A stretch of DNA of 64,000 nucleotides from NCBI GenBank assembly GCA_003583745.1, contig QXPY01000011.1, positions 1-64,000 on the forward strand. The letters run 5' to 3'. The notes under the pieces were generated by a model. That model saw only the letters and a list, made by a program, of their open reading frames with translations, did not search any database and was not told the DNA's origin. The position numbers were made by a program, and so were the translations under genes. This document shows, piece by piece, positions 14,241 to 37,748 of the stretch. This DNA comes from Rhodocyclales bacterium GT-UBC. Lineage in GTDB: Bacteria; Pseudomonadota; Gammaproteobacteria; Burkholderiales; Rhodocyclaceae. Numbering within the stretch: the first letter of the stretch is position 1; every line of letters starts with the position of its first letter.

Positions 14241-14248
14241 GGGTGGCC

Positions 14249-15046
14249 ATGAACGATGAATTGGAAGGCAAGCACGGCGTCCAGTCGCTGGAGATCGGGA
14301 TGAGCATCCTGCGCGCCATGGTCGATGGGCAGCGTTCGATGATGCTCAAGGAAATTGCCGCCAAGGCCGGCATGCCGGCCTCGAAGGCGCATCGCTACCT
14401 GGTCAGCCTGATCCGCGCCGGGCTGGTCGACCAGGACCCGATGACTTCGCGCTACGACCTCGGCACCTTCGCCCTCAACATCGGCCTGGTCGCCCTCGAC
14501 CGCCTCGACCGCGTCCGTCTCGGCCTCAATGCCATTGCCGAGATGCGCGACGAGATCAACCAGACCACGGCGCTGGCCGTCTGGGCCGAGCAGGGGCCGG
14601 TCATCGTGCGCTGGGAGCGGCCGCGCCGCCCGATCACCGTCAATGTCATCACCGGGACGGCACTCGAACTGCTGGCCTCCGCCACCGGCCGAGTCTTTGC
14701 CGCGTGGATGCCGAAAAAGACGGTGGCGCCGCTGCTCGCCCGGGAGCTCAAAGCGCCGGACCTGCCGCCCGACCTGCGTACGCGGGCCGATGTCGAAGTC
14801 CTGCTGGCCAAGGTGCGGGCCGACGGCTACGCCACCACCGACGGCTACCACAAGGTGCCCGGCGTCGAGGCGGTGGCGGCGCCGGTGTTCAACTTCAAGA
14901 ACGAGATTACCATGGCCGTGCTGATCGTCGGCGTGCAGGGCATGTTCGACACCAGCCCGGATGGCAAGGTGGTGGCCTGCCTGAAGCGCACGGCCGAGAG
15001 CCTGTCCCTGCGCCTTGGTTGCCACGGCGAACCGAAGCAGCCTTGA
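14249..15046 (+). CDS. IclR-family transcriptional regulator
   Basis: 265 residues from the ATG at 14249, which has AAGGGG seven bases upstream; the longer frame from 14174 would overlap the paaY start. The N-terminal winged helix (QSLEIGMSILRAMVDGQRSM, MLKEIAAKAGMPASKAHRYLVSLIRAG) is followed by the IclR effector domain (YDLGTFALNIGLVAL, TALAVWAEQGPVIVRWERP, and GYATTDGYHKVPGVEAVAAPVFN). IclR proteins of this type often regulate aromatic acid uptake or catabolism. It diverges from paaY and faces the transporter/catabolic block, so a second layer of pathway control is plausible. The ligand cannot be read from sequence. Confidence 0.9.
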   Translation: MNDELEGKHGVQSLEIGMSILRAMVDGQRSMMLKEIAAKAGMPASKAHRYLVSLIRAGLVDQDPMTSRYDLGTFALNIGLVALDRLDRVRLGLNAIAEMRDEINQTTALAVWAEQGPVIVRWERPRRPITVNVITGTALELLASATGRVFAAWMPKKTVAPLLARELKAPDLPPDLRTRADVEVLLAKVRADGYATTDGYHKVPGVEAVAAPVFNFKNEITMAVLIVGVQGMFDTSPDGKVVACLKRTAESLSLRLGCHGEPKQP

Positions 15047-15142
15047 GGTGCGCCGGGCGGCGGTGCAGCGTCGATGCGTGCATGCCGCCGGCGATCCGGT
15101 TAAAGTGCCTGCCTTTTTGAATCGTACTGGCAGGAATTGAAC

Positions 15143-15325
15143 ATGAAACAGGCAAAGCGTCGCTATCGTTACCCGGCTCTCGAAATGGCACCGGAAGTGC
15201 AATCCACCGTCGATGCCGAGATCGAGGCCCAGGGCTACAGCACCCATGCTCCGGCGATGGCTGCCTGGTCGGCCTGGCTGAAGCGTTCGATTGCTTTCGA
15301 GCGCAAGCAGGCCACCGGCCGCTGA
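15143..15325 (+). CDS. Small basic conserved protein
   Basis: 60 residues from the ATG at 15143 with CAGGAA upstream. The sequence is MKQAKRRYRYPALEMAPEVQ at the start, then an Ala/Trp-containing helix (STHAPAMAAWSAWLKRS) and a basic end. It is soluble, with no metal-binding or known DNA-binding motif. It converges on the substrate-binding protein gene. Likely a real short gene because of the ribosome site and chromosomal codon use; function unknown. Confidence 0.6.
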   Translation: MKQAKRRYRYPALEMAPEVQSTVDAEIEAQGYSTHAPAMAAWSAWLKRSIAFERKQATGR

Positions 15326-15371
15326 GCGACCGGGCCGCAGCCGGGGCGTGACGGCCGCCCAGAACCTGGCC

Positions 15372-16499
15372 TTACTGGACGAACTGTCCATTGCCGCGAA
15401 TCATCGACAGGTCGATAAAGCTTGATCCGACATGCCGGCCGTTGCGGTAGTCCACGATGAAATCGCCCAGGTCGAGGTGCTGCATGCCTTCCAGGGCGCT
15501 GATCAAGCCGCTGCGGGTGAGGTTCTTGCCGGCGCGGCGCAGGCCTTCGACCATGACGCGCCCGGCGATGTAGCCTTCGAGCGAGGCGTAGTGGGCATCT
15601 TCCGGCTTGCCGCCGAGCGCTTCGCGATACTGGCGGACGACGCGGTACTTGCTGCTCCACGGCGAAGGCACGACCTGGGCGATGACGATGCCGGCGGCGT
15701 CGGTTTTCAGGTCGCCGACCAACTGCGCGGCGCTGATTGCCGAAATGCCGATGAATTGCGGTCGCACGCCGTGCTTGATGGTTTCGCCGATCACCGCCGT
15801 CGATACCTTGCCGGCGGTAGCCAGGATGACCGAGGCCGGGCGTAGCCGGGCCAGTGTCTGGGCACTGGCGGCGGCCGATTCGGCCAGGTTGCCGGGGGCG
15901 ACGGCAAGCGTCGCCAGCGGCTTGAGCTTGAAGTCGGCCATCGCCTTCTCGAAGCCTTTCAAGCCGGCTTTGCCGAAATTGTCGTCCTGGTAAACGATGG
16001 CGATGTCCTTGATACCCAGCGTCGCCTGGTGTTCGACGATCTTGCGCATTTCGTCGTCGTAGGAGGCGCGCAGGTGGAAGAGTACCGGGCTGACCTTGCC
16101 GCGCAGGCTTTCGGCTCCGGTGTAGGGCGCGATAAAAGGCGTGTGGCTCTTTTCGGCCAGCGGCAGCGCGGCCAGCGTCGAGCCGGTGCCGGCATAGCCG
16201 AGCAGCGCGAAGACCTGCTTGTCCTCGATCAGCTGCCGGGTGTTTTCCTCGGCGCGGGCCGGGGTGTAGGCGTCGTCGAGGGTGACGAGTTCGATCTTGC
16301 GGCCGTTGATGCCGCCCTTCTGGTTGACCTGGTCGAGATAGAGGCGGATGCCTTTGCTGTACTGCACGCCGTTTTCGGCCAGCGGTCCGCTCAGGGGCAC
16401 AGACTGGCCGAGCAGGATGCGTTCGTCGCTGACTCCGGTCTCGGCCTGGGCGCAGCCCAGCAAGCCGAGGCCGAGGAGCAGTGCGGTGATGGTTTTCAT
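15372..16499 (-). CDS. ABC transporter periplasmic binding protein (type I, LivJ-like)
   Basis: 375 residues from MKTITALLLGLGLLGC; cleavage may occur after AQA, or LLGC may be a non-canonical lipobox. The mature part begins VSDERILLGQSVPLSGPLAENG, then RIELVTLDDAYTPARAEENTRQLIED and FIAPYTGAESLRGKV, the normal layout of branched-chain amino acid/aromatic acid binding proteins (Peripla_BP_6). It differs clearly from the second binding protein at 18236-19381. The cognate membrane subunits are LivHMGF at 29160-33062. In paa regions such proteins usually bind aryl acids, but specificity is not readable here. Confidence 0.88.
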   Translation of the reverse strand: MKTITALLLGLGLLGCAQAETGVSDERILLGQSVPLSGPLAENGVQYSKGIRLYLDQVNQKGGINGRKIELVTLDDAYTPARAEENTRQLIEDKQVFALLGYAGTGSTLAALPLAEKSHTPFIAPYTGAESLRGKVSPVLFHLRASYDDEMRKIVEHQATLGIKDIAIVYQDDNFGKAGLKGFEKAMADFKLKPLATLAVAPGNLAESAAASAQTLARLRPASVILATAGKVSTAVIGETIKHGVRPQFIGISAISAAQLVGDLKTDAAGIVIAQVVPSPWSSKYRVVRQYREALGGKPEDAHYASLEGYIAGRVMVEGLRRAGKNLTRSGLISALEGMQHLDLGDFIVDYRNGRHVGSSFIDLSMIRGNGQFVQ

Positions 16500-17339: not shown

Positions 17340-18113
17340 TCAGCGGTGCTTGAAGACCGGTTTGCGCTTCTCGACGAAGGCGGCCATGCCTTCCTTCTGG
17401 TCTTCGACGGTGAAGGCGGCGTGGAAGACGCGGCGCTCGAAGAGCAGGCCTTCGTTGAGCGACGACTCGAAGGCGCGATTCACCGATTCCTTGATCATCA
17501 TCACCACCGGCAAGGAGTAGCCGGCAATGGTCTGGGCCGCCTTCAGCGTTTCTTCCATCAGTTGTTCGGCCGGAATGACGCGGGCGACCAGGCCGGCTTT
17601 TTCGGCCTCGGCGGCATCCATCATGCGGGCGGTCAGGCAGAGATCCATTGCCTTGGCCTTGCCGACGGCGCGCGGCAGGCGCTGCGTACCGCCGGCGCCG
17701 GGCAGGGTGCCGAGGCGGATTTCCGGCTGGCCGAACTTGGCGCTGTCGGCGGCGAAGATCAAGTCGCACATCATCGCCATCTCGCAGCCGCCGCCCAGCG
17801 CAAAGCCCGCCACGGCCGCGATCACCGGCTTGCGGGTGGTCTTGAGGCGCTCCCAGTTGCGGGTGATGAAGTCCGTCTTGTAGGCGTGCATGTAGTCGAA
17901 ATCCTTCATGAAGCCGATATCGGCGCCGGCGGCGAAGGCTTTTTCGTTGCCGGTGAGGACGATGCAGCCGATGTTCTCATCGGCTTCGAAGGCGTCGATG
18001 GCGGCGGCGATGCCGTCGACGACGTCGTTGTTCAGTGCATTCATCGCTTCCGGGCGGTTGATGCGGATCAGGCCGACGCGGCCGAGGGTCTCTGTCAGGA
18101 CGAGTTGGGTCAT
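17340..18113 (-). CDS. paaF: PaaF-type 2,3-dehydroadipyl-CoA hydratase
   Basis: 257 residues. Crotonase fold with NALNNDVVDGI at the start, the oxyanion-hole segment EKAFAAGADIGFMKD, AAVAGFALGGGCEMAMMCD and both catalytic Glu residues in GGGCE and PEIRLGTLPGAGGTQR, the pair typical of true hydratases. Compared with E. coli PaaF (255 residues) the length matches. In the pathway it hydrates 2,3-dehydroadipyl-CoA to 3-hydroxyadipyl-CoA, preceding PaaH. It lies between the other crotonase and the LivK-type binding protein gene on the same strand. Assignment to PaaF versus a generic short-chain enoyl hydratase rests on context. Confidence 0.85.
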   Translation of the reverse strand: MTQLVLTETLGRVGLIRINRPEAMNALNNDVVDGIAAAIDAFEADENIGCIVLTGNEKAFAAGADIGFMKDFDYMHAYKTDFITRNWERLKTTRKPVIAAVAGFALGGGCEMAMMCDLIFAADSAKFGQPEIRLGTLPGAGGTQRLPRAVGKAKAMDLCLTARMMDAAEAEKAGLVARVIPAEQLMEETLKAAQTIAGYSLPVVMMIKESVNRAFESSLNEGLLFERRVFHAAFTVEDQKEGMAAFVEKRKPVFKHR

Positions 18114-18235
18114 TTTTATTCTCCAAAAAAGAGGCCGCCGGGTTTGACCCCGTGCGGCCCAAAGTGCAGTGTTCCTGGGGGAAGGCTCACTGCGAGCGTG
18201 GGGTTCGCCGGCGAAGGTGAGCCTGCCCGGTTGGC

Positions 18236-19381
18236 TTACTGGACCAGCGACCAGTCGCCGTTCTTGATTTCCAGCATCTTGAAAGCGGAGAGGTCGAGGC
18301 CCATGTGGTCGGTGGCCGACATGTTCACGATGCCGCCGGTGCCGATGTAGCCCTTGGTGGCTTCGAGGGCGTCGCGCACCTTGGCCTTGTCGGTGCTGCC
18401 GGCCCGCTTGATGGCATCGACGGCGAGCATCAGGCCGTCGTAGGCGTGACCGCCGAAGGTCGAGACGTCGGTCTTCCACTTTTCCTCGAAGGCCTTGGCG
18501 TAGCCGACGGCGACGGCCTTCTGCGGGTCCTTGGCATCGAGCTTGTTGGCGACCAGCAGCGCAGCGGCCGGCAGGCGGGCGCCTTCGGCGGCGGGACCGG
18601 CGAGCTTGATGAACTCTTCCGAAGCGACGCCGTGGGCGTGGTAGAGCGGCAGCGTGATGCCCAGTTGCTTGTAGTTCTTGGTGGCAATCGCCGGGCCCTG
18701 GCCGAGACCGAAGATGAACACTGCCTGGACGCCCGGCGTGCCCTTGATCTTGGTCAGCTGCGGACTCATGTCGGTATCCTTCGGGCCATAGGTTTCGCTG
18801 GCCACCAGGGTCATGCCGTACTTGGCGGCGACGCCCTCGGTTTCCTTCTTGCCGGACTGGCCGAAGCCGGAGGTTTCGGAGAGCAACGCCACCTTGCTGA
18901 TGCCGCGTTTCTTCATGTCCTCGAAGACCTTCTCGGCCGCCATGCGGTCGGTGTGCGGGGTCTTGAAGACGAACTTCTTGACCGGTTCGACGATGACCAC
19001 GGCGCCGGCCAGCGAGATGAAGGGCAGGCCGGCCTTTTCGACCAGCGGCGCGACCGACATCGTGGCGCCGGTGGTGGTGCCGCCGACCAGCACGTCCACC
19101 TTGTCGTCCTCGATCAGGCGCTTGGCGAAGCCATTGGCCTTGTTGGCATCGCTGCCGTCGTCGTAATGCACCAGTTGCAGCGGCCGGCCGAGTACGCCGC
19201 CCTTCTTGTTGATGTCGTCGACGTACATCTGCAGCGTCTTCAGTTCCGGGTCGCCGAGGAAGGCGGCCGGGCCGGTGACGGAAAGGATCGAGCCGATCTT
19301 GATCGGTTCGGCCGCCTGGGCGGTCAAGGCGCCAAGGGCCAGGGCGGCACCGGCAACCAGGGTTTTCAGCGTGTGTTTCAT
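18236..19381 (-). CDS. ABC transporter periplasmic binding protein (LivK-like)
   Basis: 381 residues with a clear Sec signal peptide ending AAALALGALTAQA. The mature chain starts AEPIKIGSILSVTGPAAFLGDPELKTLQMYVDDIN and contains GGVLGRPLQLVHYDDGSDANKAN, the standard type I periplasmic binding fold. It lies between paaJ and paaF, so it is expressed with the catabolic enzymes and probably delivers the aryl acid to the LivHMGF permease encoded divergently. Together with the protein at 15372-16499 there are two different binding proteins for one set of membrane components, suggesting dual substrates or a high- and low-affinity pair. Confidence 0.9.
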   Translation of the reverse strand: MKHTLKTLVAGAALALGALTAQAAEPIKIGSILSVTGPAAFLGDPELKTLQMYVDDINKKGGVLGRPLQLVHYDDGSDANKANGFAKRLIEDDKVDVLVGGTTTGATMSVAPLVEKAGLPFISLAGAVVIVEPVKKFVFKTPHTDRMAAEKVFEDMKKRGISKVALLSETSGFGQSGKKETEGVAAKYGMTLVASETYGPKDTDMSPQLTKIKGTPGVQAVFIFGLGQGPAIATKNYKQLGITLPLYHAHGVASEEFIKLAGPAAEGARLPAAALLVANKLDAKDPQKAVAVGYAKAFEEKWKTDVSTFGGHAYDGLMLAVDAIKRAGSTDKAKVRDALEATKGYIGTGGIVNMSATDHMGLDLSAFKMLEIKNGDWSLVQ

Positions 19382-24864: not shown

Positions 24865-26541
24865 TCAGACGTGATAGCGGCGTTGGACGACGACGAAACG
24901 GTTGGCGACGAAGGCGGCGTCGGCGTAGGAGGCGTTGGCCGCCGGGTTGCCGCCGGTGCCGTGGTAGTCGGAATAGGCCGCCGACTGGTTCACGAAGACG
25001 CCGCCGGTCAGGTTGATCGACAGCGCGACCTTGGAACGCAGGGTGGCGCTGGTCATCGCATCGATCACTTCCGGCTTGGTCGAGTAGATGCCGGCGGTGA
25101 GCGCACCGTGGGTGGCGATGATGCGTTCGGAGAGGGCGATGGCGGCAGCGGTGTCGGCGACCTTGACGATGAAGCTGATCGGCCCGAAGCGTTCTTCCAT
25201 GTAGGCATGCTCGTCGGCGGCATCGCAGGCGAGCAGGATCGGCGTCCGCACCGCGGCCTTGGGGAATTCCGGGTTGTCGAGGGCGGTCGAGGCGAGGATG
25301 ACGCGGCCGAGCGTGCCGCTGTTGGCCATCTCGATGCGCTTCAGGGTGTCGGCGGACTGCACGGCGCCGAGTACGGCGAGCGCCACTTCCGGTTTCGACA
25401 GGAAGCCGGAAACTGCCTTGGCGAGATCGGCGCAGACTTCGTCGTAGGACTTGTGGCCGTCTTCGGTGTCGATGCCGCCGGCCGGGACGAAGATGGCCTG
25501 CGAGGTGGTGCACATCTGGCCGGAGTAGAGCGACAGCGTGAAGGCCAGGTTGCGCAGCATCGGCTTGTAGGCCTCGGTCGAGTCGATGACGATGTTGTTG
25601 ACGCCGGCCAGCTCGGCATAGACGCGAGCCTGCCGGCAGTGGTCGATCAGCCATTGGCCGAAGACGTTGCCGCCGGTGAAGTCGATCGACTTGACCGCCG
25701 GGTGGGTGACCAACTTTTGCGTCGCGCTGCGGTCGGCGACGCAGAGGGTGACCAGGTTGGGATCGATGCCGTTTTCGGCAAGCACGGCGCGGATGGTGCG
25801 CACGGTGATGGCGGCCGGCAGGATGGCGTTGCTGTGCGGCTTGACGATGACGGCATTGCCGGTGGACAGCGCGGCGAACAGGCCGGGATAGGTGTTCCAG
25901 GTCGGGAAGGTGCCGCAGCCGACGACGACGCCGACGCCGTGGCCGACGATTTCAAAATGCTTCTTCATGACCAGTGACGGGTTCTTGCCCTGCGGCTTGT
26001 CCCAGACCGTTTCGGCCGGCACGAAGCTTTGTTCGCGCCAGGCATAGGCGACGGCTTCCAGCCCGCGGTCCTGGGCGTGCGGGGCGCCGGCCTGGAAGGC
26101 CATCATCCAGCCCTGGCCGGTGGTCATCATCACGGCGTGGGCGATTTCGAAGCTTTGCTTGTTCAGGCGATCGAGGATTTCCAGGCAGATGCCGGTGCGC
26201 CCGGCGGCGCCGGCTTTTTGCCAGCCGACCATGGCGGCCTGGCCGGCGGCGATCAGGGCTTCGTGATCGCAGACCGGGTAGCGCACGCCGAGGTCGATGC
26301 CATAAGGAGATTGTTCACCGCCGACCCAGCCGGCATCGCCGGCCAGCTGGCCGGGCTGCTCCAGCGCGAAGGCCTTGCCGAGGTGGGCTTCGAAAGCCTG
26401 CTTGCCGTCATCGGCGGCGCTTTCGCCATAGGTCTTCGGACTCGGCATTTCATTGTAGGCGGACCAGTAGCCACGGGTTTGGATGGCGTTCATTGCGCCG
26501 TCCAGCGTGGCGCGGTGTTTCTCCAGCAGGGGGTGGGACAT
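24865..26541 (-). CDS. paaN: PaaN-type aldehyde dehydrogenase
   Basis: 558 residues from the ATG at 26541 with an ideal AAGGAGATAAGG before it. It starts MSHPLLEKHRATLDGAMNAI and contains the aldehyde dehydrogenase catalytic Cys in SGQMCTTSQAIFVPAGG and the general-base Glu in YAELAGVNNIVI; nucleotide-fold segments include VGHGVGVVVGCGTFPTWN. The length and sequence fit the phenylacetate protein PaaN group (about 550 residues) rather than PaaZ (about 680), since the C-terminal MaoC-type hydratase domain of PaaZ is missing. It probably oxidises the ring-opened semialdehyde. It is the first gene of the minus-strand catabolic operon. Confidence 0.92.
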   Translation of the reverse strand: MSHPLLEKHRATLDGAMNAIQTRGYWSAYNEMPSPKTYGESAADDGKQAFEAHLGKAFALEQPGQLAGDAGWVGGEQSPYGIDLGVRYPVCDHEALIAAGQAAMVGWQKAGAAGRTGICLEILDRLNKQSFEIAHAVMMTTGQGWMMAFQAGAPHAQDRGLEAVAYAWREQSFVPAETVWDKPQGKNPSLVMKKHFEIVGHGVGVVVGCGTFPTWNTYPGLFAALSTGNAVIVKPHSNAILPAAITVRTIRAVLAENGIDPNLVTLCVADRSATQKLVTHPAVKSIDFTGGNVFGQWLIDHCRQARVYAELAGVNNIVIDSTEAYKPMLRNLAFTLSLYSGQMCTTSQAIFVPAGGIDTEDGHKSYDEVCADLAKAVSGFLSKPEVALAVLGAVQSADTLKRIEMANSGTLGRVILASTALDNPEFPKAAVRTPILLACDAADEHAYMEERFGPISFIVKVADTAAAIALSERIIATHGALTAGIYSTKPEVIDAMTSATLRSKVALSINLTGGVFVNQSAAYSDYHGTGGNPAANASYADAAFVANRFVVVQRRYHV

Positions 26542-26601
26542 CCTTATCTCCTTGTCGGTTTTTCTTGAGACGTATGCACGTGCTGCATCGATCTGCATAC
26601 A

Positions 26602-26641
26602 CGATACGAATTATGTTTTTAAAAGTCAAACAAAAGTATCG
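26602..26641. promoter_or_regulatory. Operator plus promoter for paaN (minus strand)
   Basis: On the minus strand GATAC, 28 bp, GTATC; TTGACT followed by 17 bp and TATCGT fits a sigma70 promoter nested in it, the -10 overlapping the downstream half site. The layout mirrors the second copy at 26799-26836. The surrounding gap 26542-26911 is 370 bp, very AT-rich, with no gene. Confidence 0.65.
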
Positions 26642-26797
26642 TAAAAAAATTCAATTTTAGACGTTATGTTTAGCGAAACAAGTTACGGTGTTTTATTTTT
26701 TCTGTTGAAAAACAAGTAAATATGATTTTTTGGCTGGCTGGTTGTTGGTGCGTGTTTCGAAATGAGAAATTTGTTCCGAAAAAATTCTCAGTCAATG

Positions 26798-26840
26798 CGA
26801 TACAAAAAATGTTGACAGTAGGTGTTGTAACGTATCATTA
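26798..26840. promoter_or_regulatory. Operator plus promoter for the diiron oxygenase operon
   Basis: GATAC, 28 bp, GTATC on the plus strand, with TTGACA at 26812-26817 between the halves and TATCAT at 26833-26838 overlapping the right half (15-bp spacer, short but usable with activator or alternative -10 placement). ATACAAAAAAT and GTATCATTA are also present before paaX. Confidence 0.65.
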
Positions 26841-26911
26841 TTCGATCAACGTCATCCGGGCGACCGGGTGAGGTGACAACCTGACGAAGCATTCCCACCC
26901 GAGGAGGAGAT

Positions 26912-27940
26912 ATGGCAAGCAACAAGGAACGTTTTTCTGACAAGATGGAATTCCCGCCGGCGATCGAGCAACCGAACGTCTATCCGCTGTCCTGGAACAG
27001 CAAGACCAAGAAACTGCAGGAAGTCTGGGAAGCCGCCCGTCGCGAGGACTGGGACCCGGAGAAGTTGCCCTGGGATACGCTGGACGTCGATAGCTACACC
27101 TGGGAAGAGCGCGAATCCATCGCTTACTGGTGGAGCCTGCTGTCGGTGTTCGATGCCTCGGCCCCGCCGGTTTTCGCCGAAGCCCTGATCAAGACCTATG
27201 AAGTGCATGAGGAAGATCCGGTCCGCAAGTGCTTCTTCTCGGTCACCCGCGACGAGCAGAACCACGAAATCATGTGCGGCCTGGCCATCACCAAGCTGCT
27301 CAATCATCCGGACCCGATCACCTACCAGCCGAAGACCGAGCTCGGCAAGCGCCTGCAGAAGAACGTGCAGTGGCTGTACTTCAACGGTGCCCGCTACTGG
27401 AACGGCTACAAGCAGGCCGTGCCGAAATACGACCTGGCGGTGCTGTTCAGCTCCTTCCTGATGGGCGAGATCGCTGCCGCGACGATCTTCAAGCAGATGT
27501 ACGACAACTCCCGCGAAGCCGTCTTCAAGGAAGGCTTCAAGAACATCGGCCGCGATGAAGGCCGCCACATGGCGATCTGCATGGCGGTGATGGAGCGTGA
27601 CTATCCGGGTCTCAAGGAAGAAACCAAGGCGGTGGTTACCAAGCAGATCCGCGCCGGCTACCTGTTCCTGTCCGCCGTGCTGTTCGAGCCGCCGATGGAA
27701 TTCTGGGACCTGCCGGATGACTTCATCGCCAACCAGCGTGAGGCCGAGGAAGTCGCCCGCGGTGCCGGCTTCGGCATCCCGAGCTACGAGGCCAAGCTGG
27801 AAAACTGGAAGAACGCGATGATCAACCTGAAGGGCGTGCTGGACCGCTACAACATTCCGTTCCCGGCCATTCCGGAGGTCGGCATCACCGGCCAGGAAGT
27901 CAGCGACGTCGATCTGGACGACATCATCCCGGTCTTCTGA
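26912..27940 (+). CDS. Single-subunit ferritin-like diiron oxygenase, candidate ring epoxidase
   Basis: 342 residues after a strong GAGGAGGAG ribosome site. The four-helix diiron set is complete in the order seen in R2/monooxygenase proteins: Glu90 (FAEALIK), E115-x-x-H118 (RDEQNHEIM), Glu186 (LMGEIAAATIF) and E216-x-x-H219 (RDEGRHMAI). It does not resemble PaaA, BoxB or AurF in the motifs I can compare, and there is no signal peptide. The next gene is a matching reductase, and both are divergent from paaN under a shared operator type. PaaG and PaaN need an epoxide-forming oxygenase, and PaaABCDE is not in the window, so I infer an aryl-acetyl-CoA epoxidase or ring hydroxylase. Substrate and reaction are unproven. 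Confidence 0.8.
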   Translation: MASNKERFSDKMEFPPAIEQPNVYPLSWNSKTKKLQEVWEAARREDWDPEKLPWDTLDVDSYTWEERESIAYWWSLLSVFDASAPPVFAEALIKTYEVHEEDPVRKCFFSVTRDEQNHEIMCGLAITKLLNHPDPITYQPKTELGKRLQKNVQWLYFNGARYWNGYKQAVPKYDLAVLFSSFLMGEIAAATIFKQMYDNSREAVFKEGFKNIGRDEGRHMAICMAVMERDYPGLKEETKAVVTKQIRAGYLFLSAVLFEPPMEFWDLPDDFIANQREAEEVARGAGFGIPSYEAKLENWKNAMINLKGVLDRYNIPFPAIPEVGITGQEVSDVDLDDIIPVF

Positions 27941-28040
27941 TCCGGGTCAGCAATTTGCAGTGATTGCTTCGGCCGGCGCTCCGCAAGGGACGCCGGCCTT
28001 GCCGCAACAGAGACACATTAAAACAGAGAGGAAGACAACA

Positions 28041-29090
28041 ATGGCTCGCATCATCATGCAACCCTCCGGCAAGTCGGTCGATTGCGCCTACGGCGACACC
28101 GTGCTGATGGCCCTGGAAAAGGCCGGCTACGCACTCCCCAACAACTGCCGCGCCGGTGCCTGCGGCGAATGCAAGGTCAAGGTCACGTCCGGCCAGTTCG
28201 ACCAGGGCATGGTGCTCGACATGGCCCTGTCGCAGGACGAGCGCAAACAGGGCTTCGGCCTGATGTGCATGGCCAAGCCGATTTCGGAAGAGATCACCAT
28301 CGAGTGGGGCACCGAAGATGCGAAGCCGAAACTGTTTCCGCCCCGCGAGGACGCCTTGTTCGTCGTCATCGACAAGAAGCGGATTGCCGCCCGTGTCGTC
28401 GAGCTGCGCTTGCGCCCGGTCGGCCAGCCGATCCGCTACTGGCCCGGCCAGTACGTGACGCTGGGCAACCCGCGGGCCGACGTGCCGGCCCGCGCCTATT
28501 CGATTTCCAACGCACCGCGCCCGGATGGCGAGCTGGTGCTGCAGGTGGCGCGCGCCGAAGGCGGCGTGACCAGCAACTGGGTGCATGATCAGTTGAATGT
28601 CGGTGACAGCGTCAAGCTGTCCGGCGCTTACGGTACCTTCATCGGCGACCCCTCGGTCGATACGCCGGTGCTTTGCCTGGCCGCCGGTACCGGCCTGGCA
28701 CCCGTTCTGGCACTGGCCGAAGCCGCCTTGCGCCGGGGCTTCAAGAAGCCGGTGACGATGGTCTTCTCGGCGCGGACCAAGGACGACGTCTATAGCCAGG
28801 GGATGATGGCCTGGTGGCGCACCAAGCATCGCAATTTCGACTACAAGGTGACGCTCACCCGCGAGCAGCAGGAAGGCTTCCTGCATGGCCGGATCGATGT
28901 CGTGCTGCCGCAGCTGTTCAAAGACTTGTCGAAGCACACGATCTTTGCCGCCGGCAGCCCGGAGTTCGTCGATACCTGCGTCGCCGCCGTCAAGCAGTTG
29001 GGGGCGCTGGACGAGCTGATCCATACCGAGGGCTTTTTCGCCCAGCAGGAACCGGTGGTGGCCGACGAGGCGCATCTGCTGGCCAAGTAG
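28041..29090 (+). CDS. [2Fe-2S]/FAD oxygenase reductase
   Basis: 349 residues from the ATG preceded by GAGAGGAAG. Residues 1-95 are a plant-type ferredoxin with Cys36, Cys41, Cys44 (NNCRAGACGECK) and Cys76 (LMCMA). Then a ferredoxin-NADP-reductase module: FAD-binding RAYSISNAP at about residue 153 and the NAD(P) segment CLAAGTGLAPVLAL at about 213. The ferredoxin domain is N-terminal, as in soluble methane or toluene/phenol monooxygenase reductases, whereas PaaE carries it at the C-terminus. It should deliver electrons from NAD(P)H to the diiron protein encoded 100 bases upstream on the same transcript. Confidence 0.9.
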   Translation: MARIIMQPSGKSVDCAYGDTVLMALEKAGYALPNNCRAGACGECKVKVTSGQFDQGMVLDMALSQDERKQGFGLMCMAKPISEEITIEWGTEDAKPKLFPPREDALFVVIDKKRIAARVVELRLRPVGQPIRYWPGQYVTLGNPRADVPARAYSISNAPRPDGELVLQVARAEGGVTSNWVHDQLNVGDSVKLSGAYGTFIGDPSVDTPVLCLAAGTGLAPVLALAEAALRRGFKKPVTMVFSARTKDDVYSQGMMAWWRTKHRNFDYKVTLTREQQEGFLHGRIDVVLPQLFKDLSKHTIFAAGSPEFVDTCVAAVKQLGALDELIHTEGFFAQQEPVVADEAHLLAK

Positions 29091-29127
29091 GCGGCGCAGC
29101 CCGATAAAAACAATGGACGGAGACGAT

Positions 29128-29166
29128 ATGTACAACGATTACGCGGCAGGGGGCGAGCCATGCTAG
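29128..29166 (+). CDS. 12-codon leader ORF coupled to livH
   Basis: ATG at 29128 with GGAG upstream encodes MYNDYAAGGEPC and stops inside the livH start (CCATGCTAG). Like the leader before paaJ, it places a good start upstream of a gene with little ribosome site of its own. It may simply be chance. Confidence 0.35.
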   Translation: MYNDYAAGGEPC

Positions 29167-30035
29167 CCCAGTTCCTGCAATTCCTCTTTTCCGGCATCAC
29201 GGTCGGTGCCACCTATGCGCTGGCCGCGCTCGGCTTCACGCTGATCTACAACGCCAGCAACGTGATCAACTTCGCCCAGGGCGAATTCATCATGCTCGGC
29301 GGCATGCTGGCGGTGGTGTTCACCCAGTCCGGCCTGCCCTTGCCGGCGGCCCTGGCGCTGGCCATCGTGATTCCCGCCATGGTCGGCGTGGTCATCGAAA
29401 AGCTGGCCATCGAGCCGGTCAAGGGCGCCGAAACGGTGACCCTGATCATCATCACCATCGGTGCCTCGCTGGTCATCCGCGGCCTGACCGCCGTCTTTCT
29501 CGGCAAGGGCACGCACGGCCTGCCGGCCTTTTCGGGCGAGACGCCGATCGAGATCCTGGGTGCGACGCTGCTGCCGCAAAGCCTGTGGGTGCTTGGCGTC
29601 ACCGCGCTGGTCGTCGTCGCGCTGTGGTATTTCTTCAATCGCACCCTGCACGGCAAGGCCATGCTGGCGACTTCCTACAATCGGCTGGCGGCCGAACTGG
29701 TCGGCATCAATACCTCGTGGGTGCTGTTCATGAGCTTCGCGATGTCGGCGGCGCTCGGTGCGCTGGGCGGCATCCTGCTGACACCGATCACCATGACCTC
29801 CTACGACGTCGGGATCATGCTCGGTCTCAAGGGCTTCGTCGCCGCCGTGCTCGGCGGGCTGGGCAACGGCCTCGGCGCCGTGGTCGGCGGCTTGCTGGTC
29901 GGCATCCTGGAAGCGATGGGGGCGGGCTACATTTCGTCGGCCTACAAGGATGCGATTCCCTTCGTGCTCATCCTGTTCATCCTCTTCTTCATGCCGCGCG
30001 GCCTGTTCGGCGGCAAATCGACGGATCGGGTCTGA
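29160..30035 (+). CDS. livH: Branched-chain-type ABC permease LivH
   Basis: 291 residues with about eight hydrophobic segments. Family landmarks are GATYALAALGFTLIYNASNVINFAQGEFIMLGGM at the start, and the ABC-interaction loop ending in LGGILLTPITMTSYDVGIMLGLKGFVAAVLGGLGNGLGAVVGG. It forms the inner-membrane channel with LivM. The gene follows the oxygenase reductase on the same strand and precedes livM by one base. In combination with two periplasmic binding proteins of the cluster it probably imports an aryl acid rather than amino acids, by context only. Confidence 0.92.
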   Translation: MLAQFLQFLFSGITVGATYALAALGFTLIYNASNVINFAQGEFIMLGGMLAVVFTQSGLPLPAALALAIVIPAMVGVVIEKLAIEPVKGAETVTLIIITIGASLVIRGLTAVFLGKGTHGLPAFSGETPIEILGATLLPQSLWVLGVTALVVVALWYFFNRTLHGKAMLATSYNRLAAELVGINTSWVLFMSFAMSAALGALGGILLTPITMTSYDVGIMLGLKGFVAAVLGGLGNGLGAVVGGLLVGILEAMGAGYISSAYKDAIPFVLILFILFFMPRGLFGGKSTDRV

Positions 30036-30036
30036 C

Positions 30037-30969
30037 ATGCAAAAGAACGTCTACAAGGGCCTCTATCTGGTCATCGCCATCCTGCTGGTGCTGCCTTTCG
30101 TGCTGCCCAACAGTTTTTATCTCGATCTGGCCATCCGCATGGCGATCAATGCCGTGATCGTCCTCGGCCTGAATCTGCTGATCGGCTTTGCCGGCCAGAT
30201 CAGCCTCGGCCATGCCGGCTTCCTCGGTATCGGGGCCTATGCCTCGGCGGTGCTGCCGACGCATTTCGGCTGGCATCCGCTGCTCGCCATGGCAGCGGGG
30301 GCGGTCGCCACCGGCATCCTGGCGGCGCTGGTGGCCCGGCCGATCTTCAAGCTCAAAGGCAACTACCTGGCGATGGCAACGCTTGGCCTTGGCATCATCA
30401 TCAGCATCGCCCTGCGCAACGAGGCGCAATGGACGGGCGGGCCGGACGGCATGCCGGTGCCGGCGATGGGCCTGTTCGGCTTCGAGCTGAGCAACGACAA
30501 GCAGTGGTACTGGGTGGTGGCCTTGCTGCTCTCGGTGTCGGTCTGGGCCTCGCTGAACCTGATCGACTCGCCTTTCGGCCGCGCCTTGCGGGCGCTGCAT
30601 GGCTCGGAAGTCGCCTCGCAGGTAGTCGGTGTCGATGTCGTGCGCTACAAGGTGGCGATCTTCGTCATGTCGGCCGTCTTCGCCAGCCTGATGGGCAGCG
30701 TCACGGCGCATTACGTCGGCTTCGTCAGCCCCAATTTCGCCGACTTCTTCCATTCCATCGAACTGGTCACCATGGTGGTGATCGGCGGCATGGCATCGGT
30801 CTACGGCTCGCTGGTCGGGGCCGTGCTGCTCACCGCGCTGCCGCAGGCGCTGGCCACCTTCGAAGGTTGGGAAACGGTGGTCTTCGGCAGCATCCTGATG
30901 CTGTCGATGATCTTCATGCCCAAGGGCCTGGTGCCGACGCTGGCGGCGAAATTCGGGAAGGAGGGCTGA
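30037..30969 (+). CDS. livM: Branched-chain-type ABC permease LivM
   Basis: 310 residues from MQKNVYKGLYL; the start one base after the livH stop agrees with the operon layout. Hydrophobic segments throughout, with LGLNLLIGFAGQISLGHAGFLGIGAYASAVL and the conserved coupling loop LRALHGSEVASQVVGVDVVRYKVAIFVMSAVFASLMGSV. Length is normal for LivM. It pairs with LivH; livG starts two bases after its stop codon. Confidence 0.92.
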   Translation: MQKNVYKGLYLVIAILLVLPFVLPNSFYLDLAIRMAINAVIVLGLNLLIGFAGQISLGHAGFLGIGAYASAVLPTHFGWHPLLAMAAGAVATGILAALVARPIFKLKGNYLAMATLGLGIIISIALRNEAQWTGGPDGMPVPAMGLFGFELSNDKQWYWVVALLLSVSVWASLNLIDSPFGRALRALHGSEVASQVVGVDVVRYKVAIFVMSAVFASLMGSVTAHYVGFVSPNFADFFHSIELVTMVVIGGMASVYGSLVGAVLLTALPQALATFEGWETVVFGSILMLSMIFMPKGLVPTLAAKFGKEG

Positions 30970-30971
30970 GC

Positions 30972-31733
30972 ATGGCACTGCTTGAAGTCAAGGATCTGTC
31001 CATCCATTTCGGCGGCGTCAAGGCCGTACAGAACGTCGGTTTCAACATCGATGCCGGCATCGTCTATTCGGTAATCGGCCCCAACGGCGCCGGCAAGACG
31101 ACCCTGTTCAACCTGATCACCGGCGTCTACAAGCCAACGACGGGCGAGATCCGCCTCGATGGCGAGGTGATCCACGGCAAGTCGCCCAACGAGCTGGCCC
31201 GGCGCGGCGTCGCCCGCACCTTCCAGAACCTGCAGATCTGCATGAACATGAGCGCCGTCGAGAATGTGATGGTCGGCGCCCACCTGCGGCTGGACCGCAA
31301 CCTGGTCAAGGCGGCGCTGCGTTTCCCCGGTCTCAAGAAGCGCGATGCCGAATTGCGCCGGGAAGCCGCCGAGCTGATGGATTTCGTCGGCCTCGGCCAG
31401 TATGTCGAGGCGCGCGCCGATGCGATGTCCTACGGCGCGCTGAAACGCCTGGAGATCGCCCGTGCCCTGGCCATGAAGCCGCGCCTGCTGTTTCTCGACG
31501 AGCCGGCGGCCGGCCTCAACCCCAAGGAAACCATCGAAGTCGATCATCTGGTGCGCAAGGTGGCCGATGCCGGCATCACCGTCGTGCTGGTCGAGCACGA
31601 CATGAAGATGGTGATGAATCTGTCGGACCGCATCCTGGTGCTCGATTACGGCAAGAAGCTGACCGAGGGGACAGGGGAGGAGATCCGCAAGAATCCCGAC
31701 GTGATCGCCGCCTATCTGGGCGCACACGCATAA
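30972..31733 (+). CDS. livG: ABC ATPase LivG
   Basis: 253 residues. Walker A GPNGAGKTTLFNLITG at about residue 36, signature-like MSYGALKRLEIARAL (an altered LSGGQ, as is common in LivG), Walker B LLFLDEPAAGLN and the H-loop VEHDMKMVM. It forms the ATPase dimer with the LivF domain encoded next. Gene order livH-livM-livG-livF is the standard one. Nothing unusual in length or start. Confidence 0.93.
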   Translation: MALLEVKDLSIHFGGVKAVQNVGFNIDAGIVYSVIGPNGAGKTTLFNLITGVYKPTTGEIRLDGEVIHGKSPNELARRGVARTFQNLQICMNMSAVENVMVGAHLRLDRNLVKAALRFPGLKKRDAELRREAAELMDFVGLGQYVEARADAMSYGALKRLEIARALAMKPRLLFLDEPAAGLNPKETIEVDHLVRKVADAGITVVLVEHDMKMVMNLSDRILVLDYGKKLTEGTGEEIRKNPDVIAAYLGAHA

Positions 31734-31745
31734 CGAGGGGGCAAC

Positions 31746-33062
<1,317 letters not shown>

Positions 33063-33329: not shown

Positions 33330-34244
33330 CTATGCTTTGGCGGTAGCCTCAACAGCCTTTAATGCTTCTCTCAAGTAATCGAAGTCTGGAATATGGACAA
33401 AATCTTGGATTGTCGAATATGTCGAGTTTTTTGTTACCCCCCCCCTTAGCTGATAAAGACATGGGGCTGCATTATCGAGCTCACACATACGGCATTGTTT
33501 AATTGCGCTCCCCTTGCATTTTTTGACAAGACCTTCAATCTCCACGAACATTTCTTCCACGAATGCTGTTAATAACCATTTTCCTTTGACAAACTTACGC
33601 ATTGACTCCACGCTTGAGGAAATATTATGAACAACTGCAAAGATGTCGAGATCGTGTTTTCTAGCCTGAAGCTTAGATACGGTATTGGCATCTTTTCGCC
33701 TGCCTATATTTGAAGAATATCCGATTATGGACTGATAAGTTGGATCGACAGCATTTTTCAATGCATCAAGCGAAAAATAATATGCATCAAATAATCTACG
33801 GCCAATTTCGATATAAATCGAATCAATATCTATTTCATCCAATACCGATATTCGTGTGAGCTGATCGATAGTAGGCTTGATCGTGAATTTTGAAACGAAG
33901 TGACTTTCAATTGAATAATAGCTCAAGCTAAAAATCGATGGTGAATTTGGTATTTCATTTCGATAGAATCGAGCATCCCGATCAATGATTCCCATCATGA
34001 ATTGCTCAACTAATTTTCCCGCAGGTAGGTTTAGCGCCTCAACAATCTGCATTGCCTCAATAACACCATCATTCCCCCCTGCAAGCCCCTCAATCATATC
34101 AACAGCATAAATTTCGCAAATGGTATTTGCAGATTTTGCAATTGCTTCGTATATGTGAATATCGTCCACTCCCTCAACAATAATATAGGGGGTTTTTGAC
34201 ATTATTGCGAGATTAAGAATCTCGTCTATCTCATATTTGTTCAT
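33330..34244 (-). CDS. ariB: AriB-like DUF4435 effector of a PARIS-type defence pair
   Basis: 304 residues. The N-terminal region has IIVEGVDDIHIYEAIA (about residues 21-36) and MMGIIDRDARFY (about 88-99), the Glu and DxD Toprim-like pattern of DUF4435 proteins. The rest is helical and lysine-rich with two Cys pairs (KKCKGSAIKQCRMCELDNAAPC). In PARIS systems AriB is held inactive by the AriA ATPase and released upon phage trigger to cleave a host tRNA. Overlap with ariA by four bases supports a two-gene operon. AT-rich codon use differs sharply from the neighbours, indicating acquisition by transfer. A nine-G tract near residue 268 could shift the frame. Identity by fold pattern and gene pair, not by database search. 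Confidence 0.7.
   Translation of the reverse strand: MNKYEIDEILNLAIMSKTPYIIVEGVDDIHIYEAIAKSANTICEIYAVDMIEGLAGGNDGVIEAMQIVEALNLPAGKLVEQFMMGIIDRDARFYRNEIPNSPSIFSLSYYSIESHFVSKFTIKPTIDQLTRISVLDEIDIDSIYIEIGRRLFDAYYFSLDALKNAVDPTYQSIIGYSSNIGRRKDANTVSKLQARKHDLDIFAVVHNISSSVESMRKFVKGKWLLTAFVEEMFVEIEGLVKKCKGSAIKQCRMCELDNAAPCLYQLRGGVTKNSTYSTIQDFVHIPDFDYLREALKAVEATAKA
33437..33445 (-). repeat. Poly-G tract (9 G) within ariB
   Basis: Nine consecutive C on the plus strand, G9 in the coding strand, lie in an otherwise AT-rich gene and encode the Gly-Gly in LRGGVTK. Addition or loss of one base would replace the last roughly 35 residues of AriB. Confidence 0.9.
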
Positions 34245-35578
34245 TGCTCACCTTTGATTACTTTGAGTTCTGACAAATATGACGGATTTCGCTTTGCAAG
34301 CACGGGGCTGTGTGATGCCACAATGATTTGCGTGTTAGGAGCTAAATTGTGAAGCAGCCCCATTAACTCTCGCTGCCATTTGATGTTTAGGGAAATTTCA
34401 GGCTCGTCAATAACCAAAAAGTTTCGTTGGCGACCTTGAAATAAAACAAGTGTCAGAAAGGTGAGAATATGTCGTTCGCCACTAGATAAATCACTAACGG
34501 GCAATTCCCGGCCATCAACCTCAATAAATACTTTGTCGTCTAGTATCTTTAACGATTTTTCGTCGATGAGATAGCTATTGAATTTTTCAGCCAATAGATT
34601 AACAGAACTCAATAATAGTTTTTCAAGTCTAAGTTCCCCCATCATGTTCCACAAAAGCGCCCTAAGGAGGCCTTTATCAAAAATCGCGTCATAACTTGAT
34701 TCGCTATCAAGTTCTTTTAATTTTGAAATAATAAGATTCTTAAAGTCATTTTTCGAGTTGTCGCTTAGGGCTTCGACAAGCCGCAGCCGGCTACTCTTGA
34801 GGGTGGAAATAAAATCCTCTCTTGAAACCTTTAGCTCATTATTGGCTTCATTTGAAATTGCGAACGAAAGAGTATTAAAAAGTGCGTCTTGAATTTGCTT
34901 GGTTGCTATCTCACGAGCGAAACGATAGTGTTCCAATAGTATTTGCTCAACATTCTCAAGCTTTATGTTTTGCAAGTTCACGTGGGCACTATCAAATCGC
35001 AGTTCTGAACGCTTTGATCTATTGCTATTAACTTGCCATGTACGAATATAACGAGACATATCTTCAGCCAATTCGTGCATACTAGAATTTCTCAGCCCAG
35101 GAACGGATTGAACGCGGTCGCGAATACGCGAGGTTAAGAAATAATTCAAAATAACATCTGGCTCAATTCGTGATTGCTGAGTTGCGACTCCTCGTTCGAC
35201 ACCAAGCGATAGCGATTTTGTTTTTACTAGTGACGAGGCTTCAAATTGTGACCAGTTATATTGGCCATCAATCTTTTCAACAATAACCTTCCCGTCAAGA
35301 TTTTCAGCAGTAACTTCTTCGTGGACTAATTCACCATCGTCGTCAAATATTTGGTGAATTTCGTCATAGATAAATTCGCATTCAATTTTCTGAACGGAGA
35401 TTGCATCAAGGTATGAGCTATCTTGTGAAAGGAAAGCATTTATGGCTCTAAGATACGTTGTTTTCCCAGATCCGTTATCGCCAAATATGACGGTAACCAA
35501 TTCATCGGAAAATTTAACTATGGCAGTGTGTTTATAAGTCCTAAAGCCCTCGAACGTTAGTTTTTTCAGCTTAATCAT
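34241..35578 (-). CDS. ariA: AriA-like SMC/ABC-type ATPase of a PARIS-type defence pair
   Basis: 445 residues. Walker A GDNGSGKTTYLRAIN at about residue 33, signature-like LSSGERHILTFLTLVLF at about 377, Walker B NFLVIDEPEISLN and a D-loop/His region QIIVASHSPVLAK. The middle is coiled-coil and helical. This AAA15/OLD-like ATPase without a C-terminal Toprim domain, followed directly by a DUF4435 gene, is the PARIS AriA/AriB arrangement. Typical AriA is a little longer than 445 residues but in range. Codon use is AT-rich. The start has no obvious ribosome site beyond AT-rich sequence. Confidence 0.72.
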   Translation of the reverse strand: MIKLKKLTFEGFRTYKHTAIVKFSDELVTVIFGDNGSGKTTYLRAINAFLSQDSSYLDAISVQKIECEFIYDEIHQIFDDDGELVHEEVTAENLDGKVIVEKIDGQYNWSQFEASSLVKTKSLSLGVERGVATQQSRIEPDVILNYFLTSRIRDRVQSVPGLRNSSMHELAEDMSRYIRTWQVNSNRSKRSELRFDSAHVNLQNIKLENVEQILLEHYRFAREIATKQIQDALFNTLSFAISNEANNELKVSREDFISTLKSSRLRLVEALSDNSKNDFKNLIISKLKELDSESSYDAIFDKGLLRALLWNMMGELRLEKLLLSSVNLLAEKFNSYLIDEKSLKILDDKVFIEVDGRELPVSDLSSGERHILTFLTLVLFQGRQRNFLVIDEPEISLNIKWQRELMGLLHNLAPNTQIIVASHSPVLAKRNPSYLSELKVIKGEQ

Positions 35579-36845: not shown

Positions 36846-37748
36846 CTATCCGCCCAGTACAGCATTTCCGCGTAGCTGCTCAACCAGCACATCGACCAGC
36901 GCGCGGACCTTGCCTGACGCCTGCTTGCCTTCGAGATGGATGATGTGGACAGGGAGCGCTGGCGGCTCATAGTCGGGGAATATTCGAACAAGTCGCCCCG
37001 CTGCCAGATGGTCGGCAGCCTGATAGGACATCAGACGCGTTATACCAAAACCCATTAATGCTGCCTCAATGGCCGCTGCGTTGTTGCTTACGGTCAGGCG
37101 CGGTTGGACCTTTACGCTGATTTGTTGTCTGGCGTTGCCCAGGCGCCATTCCAAGCCCGGAGAGACAGGACTGGCCGAGATGATCGTCTGTGCTGTCAGA
37201 TGCTTAGGCTCATTCAGTTCCGGGCACTCGGCTAGATAGTCAGGGGAGGCGCAAATGATGCGCCTGACCGAACCAACCGGGATGGCTCGCATGGTCGAGT
37301 CAGGCAATTCGCCAATACGGACACCGACGTCGATGCCTTCTTCCAGAAGATTGACGGCTCTGTCGAGAAAAACTGCATTGACGGAAACATCGGGGTAGCG
37401 CCTCAGGAACTCAACGATGCCCGGCATGACATGCATGCTGCCAAACAGCACCGGCGCCGTAACAGCCAGGTGTCCCCGTGGCGCCGCATGTACTCCTGCC
37501 GCTGCTTCGTCAGCCTCGTCCGCCTGGGCCAGGATGCTTCGGGCGCTCTCGAGGTAACGCTGGCCGGCGTTTGTGGTGCGGACAAAACGCGTCGTGCGGG
37601 TCAAGAGCTTGATGCCAAGATGAGCCTCCAGTGCCGCAATAGTCCGCGTTACGGCTGGCGGCGACATATTTAGGCGCCGAGCGGCGGCAGCGAAACCTTC
37701 TTCTTCGGCCACCGCAACGAAAACACTCATCGAATGAAGTCTGTCCAT
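36846..37748 (-). CDS. LysR-family transcriptional regulator
   Basis: 300 residues. The N-terminal helix-turn-helix (MDRLHSMSVFVAVAEEEGFAAAARRLNMSPPAVTRTIAALEAHLGIKLLTRTTRFVRTTNAGQRYLESAR is the usual DNA-binding segment, residues 1-70) is followed by the LysR substrate-binding domain. It is divergent from the AhpD-like cluster with only about 125 bases between the starts, the standard arrangement for a LysR activator and its target. Inducer unknown. Confidence 0.9.
   Translation of the reverse strand: MDRLHSMSVFVAVAEEEGFAAAARRLNMSPPAVTRTIAALEAHLGIKLLTRTTRFVRTTNAGQRYLESARSILAQADEADEAAAGVHAAPRGHLAVTAPVLFGSMHVMPGIVEFLRRYPDVSVNAVFLDRAVNLLEEGIDVGVRIGELPDSTMRAIPVGSVRRIICASPDYLAECPELNEPKHLTAQTIISASPVSPGLEWRLGNARQQISVKVQPRLTVSNNAAAIEAALMGFGITRLMSYQAADHLAAGRLVRIFPDYEPPALPVHIIHLEGKQASGKVRALVDVLVEQLRGNAVLGG

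Follow-up and report, generated by a model that had tools for sequence, protein, structure and literature searches.

In this study we describe a pair of adjacent genes that seems to encode a second enzyme for the oxygen step of phenylacetate breakdown. The pair lies in a 64,000-nucleotide stretch from Rhodocyclales bacterium GT-UBC (contig QXPY01000011.1, positions 1 to 64,000), here called the window, beside a cluster of paa genes in which the five-gene epoxidase PaaABCDE is missing. Many bacteria possess this route, whose committing oxygen step is the epoxidation of the phenylacetyl-CoA ring; to our knowledge PaaABCDE is the only enzyme known to carry it out. We consider it likely that the two genes encode a two-component epoxidase, dependent on NAD(P)H and O2, for the ring of an arylacetyl-CoA, most likely phenylacetyl-CoA. 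As such it would be a counterpart of PaaABCDE, to which it has no detectable sequence relation; some lineages have both enzymes and others the pair only. The two genes are:

26912..27940, + strand: diiron oxygenase (hydroxylase) component, 342 amino acids (aa); predicted all-helical and ferritin-like, with weak similarity to AurF (20.2 bits against a cut-off of 29.6)
28044..29090, + strand: reductase, 348 aa, likely start ATG 28044; N-terminal [2Fe-2S] ferredoxin domain, then FAD and NAD domains (the mechanically called reading frame begins at 27960)

PaaK would first form the CoA ester. The reductase would then take electrons from NAD(P)H and deliver them, through FAD and the [2Fe-2S] cluster, to the diiron site, and the diiron protein would place one oxygen atom across C1 and C2 of the ring. 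PaaG would convert the epoxide to the oxepin, and PaaN, PaaH, PaaF and PaaJ would complete the route. We infer substrate and reaction from this pathway logic. What we observe is which genes are present, how strictly the two members of the pair go together, that the pair occurs with PaaG, that many carriers have no PaaA or PaaC, that selection acts on the pathway and that the putative ligands are conserved.

Absence of PaaABCDE and co-occurrence with PaaG

A sequence-only reading of the window had noted that PaaABCDE is missing from the cluster. For PaaA and PaaC (PF05138; PaaA/C below) this extends to the entire assembly of 47 contigs, for which a completeness of 100 and a contamination of 0.22 are reported, with no match at E ≤ 0.001 or even at E ≤ 1, and BoxB (TIGR03225) has no match at E ≤ 0.001; PaaB, PaaD and PaaE had no separate genome-wide search. 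The same reading had proposed to test whether the diiron gene occurs with paaG where paaA is absent, and this association was found in two sets of genomes. For the first, 150 genomes with a completeness of 90% or more were taken from the window's GTDB family; among them were 30 carriers of the diiron gene (one, G292, with a contig-end fragment only), 63 genomes with PaaG, 38 with strong PaaA/C and four with only a distant PF05138 protein. All 30 carriers have PaaG and 29 of them PaaN_2; 15 carriers are without PaaA/C and 15 have both enzymes. The 63 PaaG-positive genomes divide into PaaA/C only (22), diiron gene only (15), both (15), distant PF05138 protein only (3) and neither (8). Among family genomes with no PF05138 match at E ≤ 1e-10, PaaG is present in 15/15 carriers versus 8/93 non-carriers.

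The replicate set consisted of 225 genomes of the alphaproteobacterial order around Insolitispirillum. Here PaaG occurs in all 11 carriers, ten of which are without PaaA/C and one of which has it, and the 52 PaaG-positive genomes divide into PaaA/C only (9), diiron gene only (10), both (1), distant PF05138 protein only (8) and neither (24). An even draw of 220 genomes from the window's own order contained six carriers.

In addition, 39 carrier genomes were chosen, non-randomly, from the best 80 of 331 encoding stretches that a pattern scan found in one-genome-per-species data (these 80 are referred to as loci). PaaA/C scores above the cut-off in 20 of the 39, and 19 are without it, two of these (G020, G033) having a weak match in a BoxB-sized reading frame. 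PaaG stands in the fetched locus (at most 10 kb on each side) in 19/19 carriers without PaaA/C versus 10/20 with it. The earlier idea of an alternative epoxidase is thus well supported by this comparative evidence. As PaaABCDE is retained by about half of the carriers among the betaproteobacteria, the pair would be an alternative or parallel enzyme and not always a replacement.

A third layout of paa genes was seen in passing. In L112:8447-9890 (genome G264) and L143:9847-11350 (G578), and also in G316 and G198, a divergent PF05138 protein adjoins paaG; none of the four genomes has strong PaaA/C, and a flavodoxin gene lies beside paaN in L112 and L143. The L112 protein (259 aa) scores 86 bits with Pfam and 70 bits with the PaaA model (cut-off 280), and hhalign gives it a probability of 98 to PaaA. 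This may be one more epoxidase made of a single protein, to which flavodoxin would supply the electrons.

Pairing of the two genes and their context

The reductase gene follows the diiron gene on the same strand in 79 of the 80 loci, with a median gap between matches of 102 bases; the single exception (L045) is a stretch that ends inside the diiron gene. Fer2 matches residues 6-79 of the window reductase, followed by the FAD and NAD domains, and the PaaE model finds its best stretch at residues 129-342, that is the flavoprotein part only (132 bits, cut-off 421). The domain order had been described as opposite to that of PaaE, which is therefore right. The ferredoxin motif CX4CX2CX31C begins at Cys35, and CX4CX2CX25-35C is kept in all 87 reductase relatives extracted (the incomplete copy in L105 excluded). 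The description of the oxygenase as single-subunit has to be modified: hydroxylase and reductase would form a two-component enzyme, and no small coupling subunit was recognised in the window's cluster.

At least one paa gene lies in the fetched stretch in 67/80 loci, PaaG in 60/80. Among loci of at least 19 kb the share is 44/52, and the genomes of all eight remaining long loci (L039, L042, L053, L061, L065, L066, L073, L079) have PaaA/C elsewhere. In both Paraburkholderia loci among these eight (L039, L042) PaaX, the regulator of phenylacetate breakdown, comes after the pair (279 bits, cut-off 265). The pair can also adjoin PaaABCDE where this is present, for example in L050, L054, L067, L076 and L077. 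An auxiliary would be expected in such a place. Its job could be to repair excess epoxide or remove the oxygen from it, to scavenge oxygen or peroxide, or to hydroxylate a by-product, and it would not supply any epoxide; deoxygenation of an epoxide has been suggested for BoxB (PMC5489048). We regard such a role as very improbable, given that no PaaA/C was found in 19/39, 15/30 and 10/11 carrier genomes of the three sets, which keep PaaG, and that purifying selection acts on PaaG in both clades tested (see below).

Exchange with PaaABCDE and selection on the remaining pathway

The remaining cluster genes of the window, on the minus strand and divergent to the pair, are as follows (scores of TIGR models are above the cut-off):

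24865..26598, - strand: paaN (PaaN_2, ring-opening aldehyde dehydrogenase), divergent to the diiron gene; TIGR02288, 887 bits
24061..24855, - strand: paaG (1,2-epoxyphenylacetyl-CoA isomerase); TIGR02280, 373 bits
22527..24290, - strand: paaH (3-hydroxyacyl-CoA dehydrogenase), homologous part residues 87-587; TIGR02279, 692 bits
22064..22552, - strand: paaI (thioesterase); TIGR02286, 168 bits
20708..22033, - strand: paaK (phenylacetate-CoA ligase); TIGR02155, 704 bits
19433..20638, - strand: paaJ/pcaF (3-oxoadipyl-CoA thiolase); TIGR02430, 730 bits
18236..19381, - strand: SBP1, periplasmic binding protein; in congener G223 paaABCDE comes next
18111..18235, no strand: short SBP1-paaF junction, the site where congener G223 has paaABCDE
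17340..18479, - strand: enoyl-CoA hydratase in the paaF position, homologous part residues 125-379; PRK05862, 446 bits
13558..14175, - strand: paaY; TIGR02287, 334 bits

The gene set listed earlier for this cluster holds for PaaK, PaaG, PaaN, PaaH, PaaI, PaaJ and PaaY. The gene in the PaaF position fits the enoyl-CoA hydratase model PRK05862 best and stays below the PaaF cut-off (269 bits, cut-off 371), and the PaaX that had been listed was not found among the window reading frames scanned, which were a subset of them.

In the congener G223 (locus L103) the order is SBP1, paaA, paaB, paaC, paaD, paaE, paaF, and its other cluster genes and the pair are ordered as in the window. Between the SBP1 and paaF matches lie 4221 bases in G223 and 128 in the window; in the 14 other loci where SBP1 and paaF were both found the distance is 55-185. 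These junctions are compatible with a loss of paaABCDE in the line of the window as well as with a gain in others. In a quick tree of 48 diiron proteins, where the neighbours of the window protein place its organism close to Azonexus, the state (both enzymes or pair only) changes at least eight times, three of these changes being forced by starred branches. Near-identical diiron proteins (94-98%) are found with and without PaaABCDE beside the same genes.

Selection was measured by simple Nei-Gojobori counts in two clades of five genomes without PaaA/C, Castellaniella (where dS is near saturation) and Azonexus, and in six genomes with both enzymes. Median dN/dS values, in this order, are:

Diiron gene: 0.045, 0.042, 0.073
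PaaG: 0.124, 0.197, 0.151
PaaN: 0.138, 0.161, 0.130
PaaH (the least constrained in the two clades): 0.213, 0.252, 0.134

PaaK and PaaJ are low in both clades as well. PaaG, PaaN and the rest of the pathway are kept under purifying selection in these two clades. The short SBP1-paaF junction, at a place where the congener has paaABCDE, would fit a recent loss, after which the cluster could be a decaying remnant and the diiron gene unrelated to it. With the low dN/dS of PaaG, PaaN, PaaK, PaaJ and the diiron gene in two clades, and with a gene order that is conserved across classes, we find decay hardly credible, the least probable of the explanations we considered.

The diiron protein and its relation to known enzymes

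In 116 aligned rows D81, E115, H118, E186, E216 and H219 are invariant. Position 90 is E in 107/116 rows and R in all four rows of a second subfamily (~50% identical to the window protein), which keep D81. The earlier ligand assignment is kept for E115xxH118, E186 and E216xxH219. E90 is probably not a metal ligand, and the first ligand is more likely D81. We propose D81, E115, H118, E186, E216 and H219 as putative ligands of a predicted diiron site. The better AlphaFold model (51 rows; pLDDT 84.5, pTM 0.87) is nearly all helix and places D81, E115/H118, E186 and E216/H219 in four separate long helices, with lower confidence in the stretch 81-100 (block means 70 and 66). On the basis of weak Pfam matches and these modelled helices we propose a ferritin-like diiron fold with a predicted metal site.

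The window protein has 879 relatives at E ≤ 0.001 in a large protein set, the best 120 of which are 76-97% identical. A second search from a 74% relative brought source names such as Bdellovibrio, Halobacteriovorax and Sulfurospirillum, 78-79% identical to that query. Among the matches listed (the best 120 of each search) no name points to a tested function, and searches of PDB sequences and profiles gave nothing meaningful. A match to a characterised enzyme of another pathway had been named as the outcome that would speak against the epoxidase idea; in Pfam, NCBIfam and PDB sequences no clear match of this kind was found. Another such outcome, a full paaABCDE set elsewhere in the genome, did not occur either as far as PaaA and PaaC show.

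The pair resembles PaaABCDE in its pathway position, in its partners PaaK, PaaG, PaaN/PaaZ, PaaH, PaaF and PaaJ, and in combining a predicted diiron hydroxylase with a ferredoxin-flavin reductase. Unlike PaaABCDE it has two genes instead of five and no recognised PaaB- or PaaD-like subunits, and its reductase has the ferredoxin domain first, whereas that of PaaE-type reductases is C-terminal. The diiron protein has no match to PF05138 at E ≤ 1. BoxAB, the benzoyl-CoA 2,3-epoxidase, likewise consists of a diiron protein and a reductase acting on an aryl-CoA, and the pair would work alike; it differs from BoxAB in cluster and in profile, and BoxB is absent from the window genome. With hhalign the diiron profile, which is shallow (Neff 1.5), gave probabilities of 0.6 to PaaA, 0.1 to PaaC and 0.2 to BoxB, compared with controls of 56 for PaaA-BoxB, 98 for PaaA and the lone PF05138 protein, and 9.4 for PaaA-PaaC. 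By the sequence features tested the pair stands outside the PaaABCDE and BoxAB families, but very probably it works like them. A remote common origin of the diiron protein with PaaA, PaaC and BoxB is possible, given the low power of this test.

The nearest Pfam family is that of the AurF/CmlI arylamine N-oxygenases (PF11583), which 39 of 51 relatives of the diiron protein match at E ≤ 0.001, but the window protein stays below the gathering cut-off as given above, and the operon context of the pair is catabolic. AurF has an extra, seventh ligand histidine before the second ExxH; the equivalent position of the diiron protein by spacing alone, 212, is I in 113 and V in three of the 116 rows. The pattern D...ExxH...E...ExxH, with Asp as first ligand, is that of ribonucleotide reductase R2 and R2-like proteins (PF00268), a family matched by 14 of the 51 relatives at E ≤ 0.001. 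This similarity is very weak, however: the window protein has no PF00268 match at E ≤ 1, and the partners of the pair, a catabolic reductase and paa genes, are different.

A second subfamily

A search of plasmid records found an 80% relative on Vitreoscilla pVF1, where the pair lies near paaZ and paaB-E are in the stretch too, and more distant relatives (49-53%) on three Variovorax replicons, one of which is unannotated, and in one Nonomuraea record. Upstream of the pair in Variovorax paradoxus VAI-C are a MaoC protein like the C-terminus of PaaZ, a PaaG-like hydratase (149 bits, below cut-off), a thiolase with an OB-fold partner, PaaN (625 bits, above cut-off), a PaaK-like ligase (283 bits, below cut-off) and a CoA transferase; downstream follow an ABC transporter, an FAD-binding oxidase and a protein annotated as indolepyruvate ferredoxin oxidoreductase family. 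Variovorax RA8 has a similar layout with no PaaN in the stretch, so that PaaN is present in one of the two annotated Variovorax loci. Near the actinobacterial relative from Nonomuraea gerenzanensis (L149, 49% identity) no reductase or paa genes were recognised by the queries used.

By its genes the Variovorax locus seems to serve a parallel, CoA-dependent route that starts from a different arylacetate. It supports ring oxygenation of aryl-CoA as the common job of the family, and since this subfamily lies in a different pathway with a PaaK-like ligase, the family may attack several aryl-CoAs. One could therefore argue that the substrate of the window's pair, too, is another arylacetyl-CoA (a hydroxy-, amino- or indole-acetyl-CoA, say) and that, in carriers lacking PaaABCDE, the paa-like genes act on this compound instead of phenylacetate. 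It would fit this view that PaaABCDE is retained in half of the carriers among the betaproteobacteria and that the Variovorax pathway combines an annotated indolepyruvate:ferredoxin oxidoreductase with a ligase below the PaaK cut-off. In the window, however, PaaK, PaaG, PaaI, PaaN and PaaH all score above the phenylacetate equivalog cut-offs. In addition, since diiron proteins of 94-98% identity have the same neighbours with and without PaaABCDE, a change of substrate would have to spare the other enzymes. We therefore think a different substrate unlikely, and favour phenylacetyl-CoA epoxidation for the pair of the window.

Upstream regions

The region between paaN and the diiron gene contains one promoter-like site for each direction:

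26599..26911, no strand: divergent promoter region, one sigma-70-like site per strand (2 found in 26500-29300, 0.7 expected)

GATAC-type half sites are repeated in this region (ACGATACGA, AGTATCGT, GCGATACAA, CGTATCATT), and several 12-mers containing them are common to 10-16 of 106 relatives. Possibly they are candidate operators of a regulator.

We also searched upstream of the diiron gene for FNR-like boxes (palindromes with at most one mismatch to the FNR-type consensus). Such a box is present in 8 of 14 loci with the pair away from paa genes and PaaA/C elsewhere, against 3/27 loci of genomes without PaaA/C and 9/160 other upstream regions, which were taken from 13 of these loci (one or more of the nine being the same box seen from the divergent gene). 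In loci of genomes with both enzymes the count is 11/40, and over all 106 upstream regions it is 14, with ~2% in mononucleotide shuffles. The eight loci represent two lineages only, Achromobacter and a Pseudothauera-like group, and their rows are related. Perfect boxes occur in Marinospirillum (L076) and G271 (L105), both outside the set of 14, and in the window itself no FNR-like box was found (at best three mismatches). We see in the boxes a hint of an isozyme for oxygen-limited conditions; they do not prove it. They are the reason for the low-oxygen part of a wider reading, which as a whole we put forward only tentatively: a family of two-component aryl-CoA ring epoxidases with no detectable relation to PaaA, PaaC or BoxB and divided into two or more branches that each act on a different arylacetyl-CoA, might serve as a low-oxygen isozyme under FNR/ANR-type regulators where both enzymes are kept, and as the sole epoxidase in lineages without paaABCDE.

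Neighbouring genes of the window

Downstream of the reductase lies a transporter:

29160..33062, + strand: Liv-type ABC transporter (LivH, LivM, LivG, LivF)

Its probable role is the uptake of aromatic acids. Many of the 80 loci have a similar Liv-type set next to the pair, as do L133 and L135, from alphaproteobacteria without PaaA/C (G478 and G480), where the pair adjoins a binding protein and LivHMGF; there the transporter may be a phenylacetate importer. A second binding protein sits between the paaF-position hydratase and paaY. Adjoining paaY, a reading frame of 391 aa (14216-15391, - strand) with relatives (36-58% identity) in 24/80 loci has no match in Pfam (E ≤ 0.001) or NCBIfam (E ≤ 1e-20). 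A LysR gene is located at 36846-37748. At 33330-35578 (- strand) a DUF4435 protein (27 bits, at cut-off) lies beside an ATPase weakly similar to PtuA-type defence ATPases, a possible anti-phage gene pair. In 13000-34000 no Rfam family reaches its gathering score.

Discussion

Several points weigh against reading the pair as a phenylacetyl-CoA epoxidase. We found no biochemical or growth evidence for it, nor, in open-licence PubMed Central papers, any report that a carrier lacking PaaABCDE grows aerobically on phenylacetate. Fisher tests of the association with PaaG gave 5.6e-13 (no PF05138 match at all) and 3.1e-8 (no strong PaaA/C), values that are uncorrected for ancestry and overstate the significance because the rows share it. 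The sample sets overlap in part, some of the 39 chosen genomes recurring in the family set. PaaA/C is also present in 20/39 chosen and 15/30 family carriers, in which the pair might have another job, and in the two alphaproteobacteria G478 and G480, neither of which has PaaA/C, the pair is separate from the paa genes and has an ABC transporter as neighbour. In L031/L092 and L104, which have both enzymes, SBP1 and paaF are adjacent and paaABCDE lies just past paaF; as L031 is one of the 14 short-gap loci, a bare SBP1-paaF junction alone is not diagnostic, and paaABCDE evidently occupies more than one place. The profile test has low power, for PaaA and PaaC reach only 9.4 with each other despite their shared Pfam family.

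Finally, PaaG occurs without PaaA/C, a distant PF05138 protein or the pair in 8/63 PaaG-positive genomes of the family and in 24/52 of the alphaproteobacterial order, so that PaaG alone is no proof of an epoxidase partner. An exact rule by which PaaG is always accompanied by PaaABCDE or the pair was rejected on these counts. Seven of the eight family genomes have a weak PF05138 match in a BoxB-sized reading frame (480-550 aa), and all three of those seven that were checked score above the BoxB cut-off. Five of the 24 alphaproteobacterial genomes were inspected: three loci (L140, L142, L145) have a 68-69% BoxB relative within ~3 kb of a PaaG-like gene, and in L141 and L146 no oxygenase was recognised by the queries used. 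The PaaG-like genes of the former three are 50-53% identical to the window PaaG. From their position near BoxB relatives the PaaG equivalog model seems to match members of the box route too. A share of the PaaG matches may therefore belong to that route, which makes PaaG alone an imperfect marker.

No description of this two-gene enzyme was found in a literature search that covered open-licence PubMed Central papers but not subscription papers and preprints. A 2026 survey keeps ligases that are co-localised with PaaABCDE and advises PaaA plus PaaC as robust markers of the route (PMC13186573). The GapMind paper fills an oxepin-CoA hydrolase gap in Paraburkholderia bryophila, where the oxygenase is paaABCDE; its main text does not contain the words 'diiron', 'AurF' or 'epoxidase' (PMC9007349). 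A systems paper on Aromatoleum covers the epoxide route and two paa clusters, and its one mention of 'diiron' is a BoxB reference (PMC9765128). A passage in the genome paper on Dechloromonas aromatica refers to a 'ubiquitous phenylacetic acid catabolic cluster' and gives no detail (PMC2907700).

If our reading is true, the pair is an unrecognised second way to start a common route of phenylacetate breakdown. The rule that takes PaaA and PaaC as markers would then miss carriers that have the pair only, such as Azonexus hydrophilus, Castellaniella, Brachymonas denitrificans and Insolitispirillum. A two-gene enzyme should also be easier to handle than a five-gene one in studies of mechanism and in engineering work. 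Moreover, a comparison would be invited between two diiron proteins of different origin that reach the same reaction.

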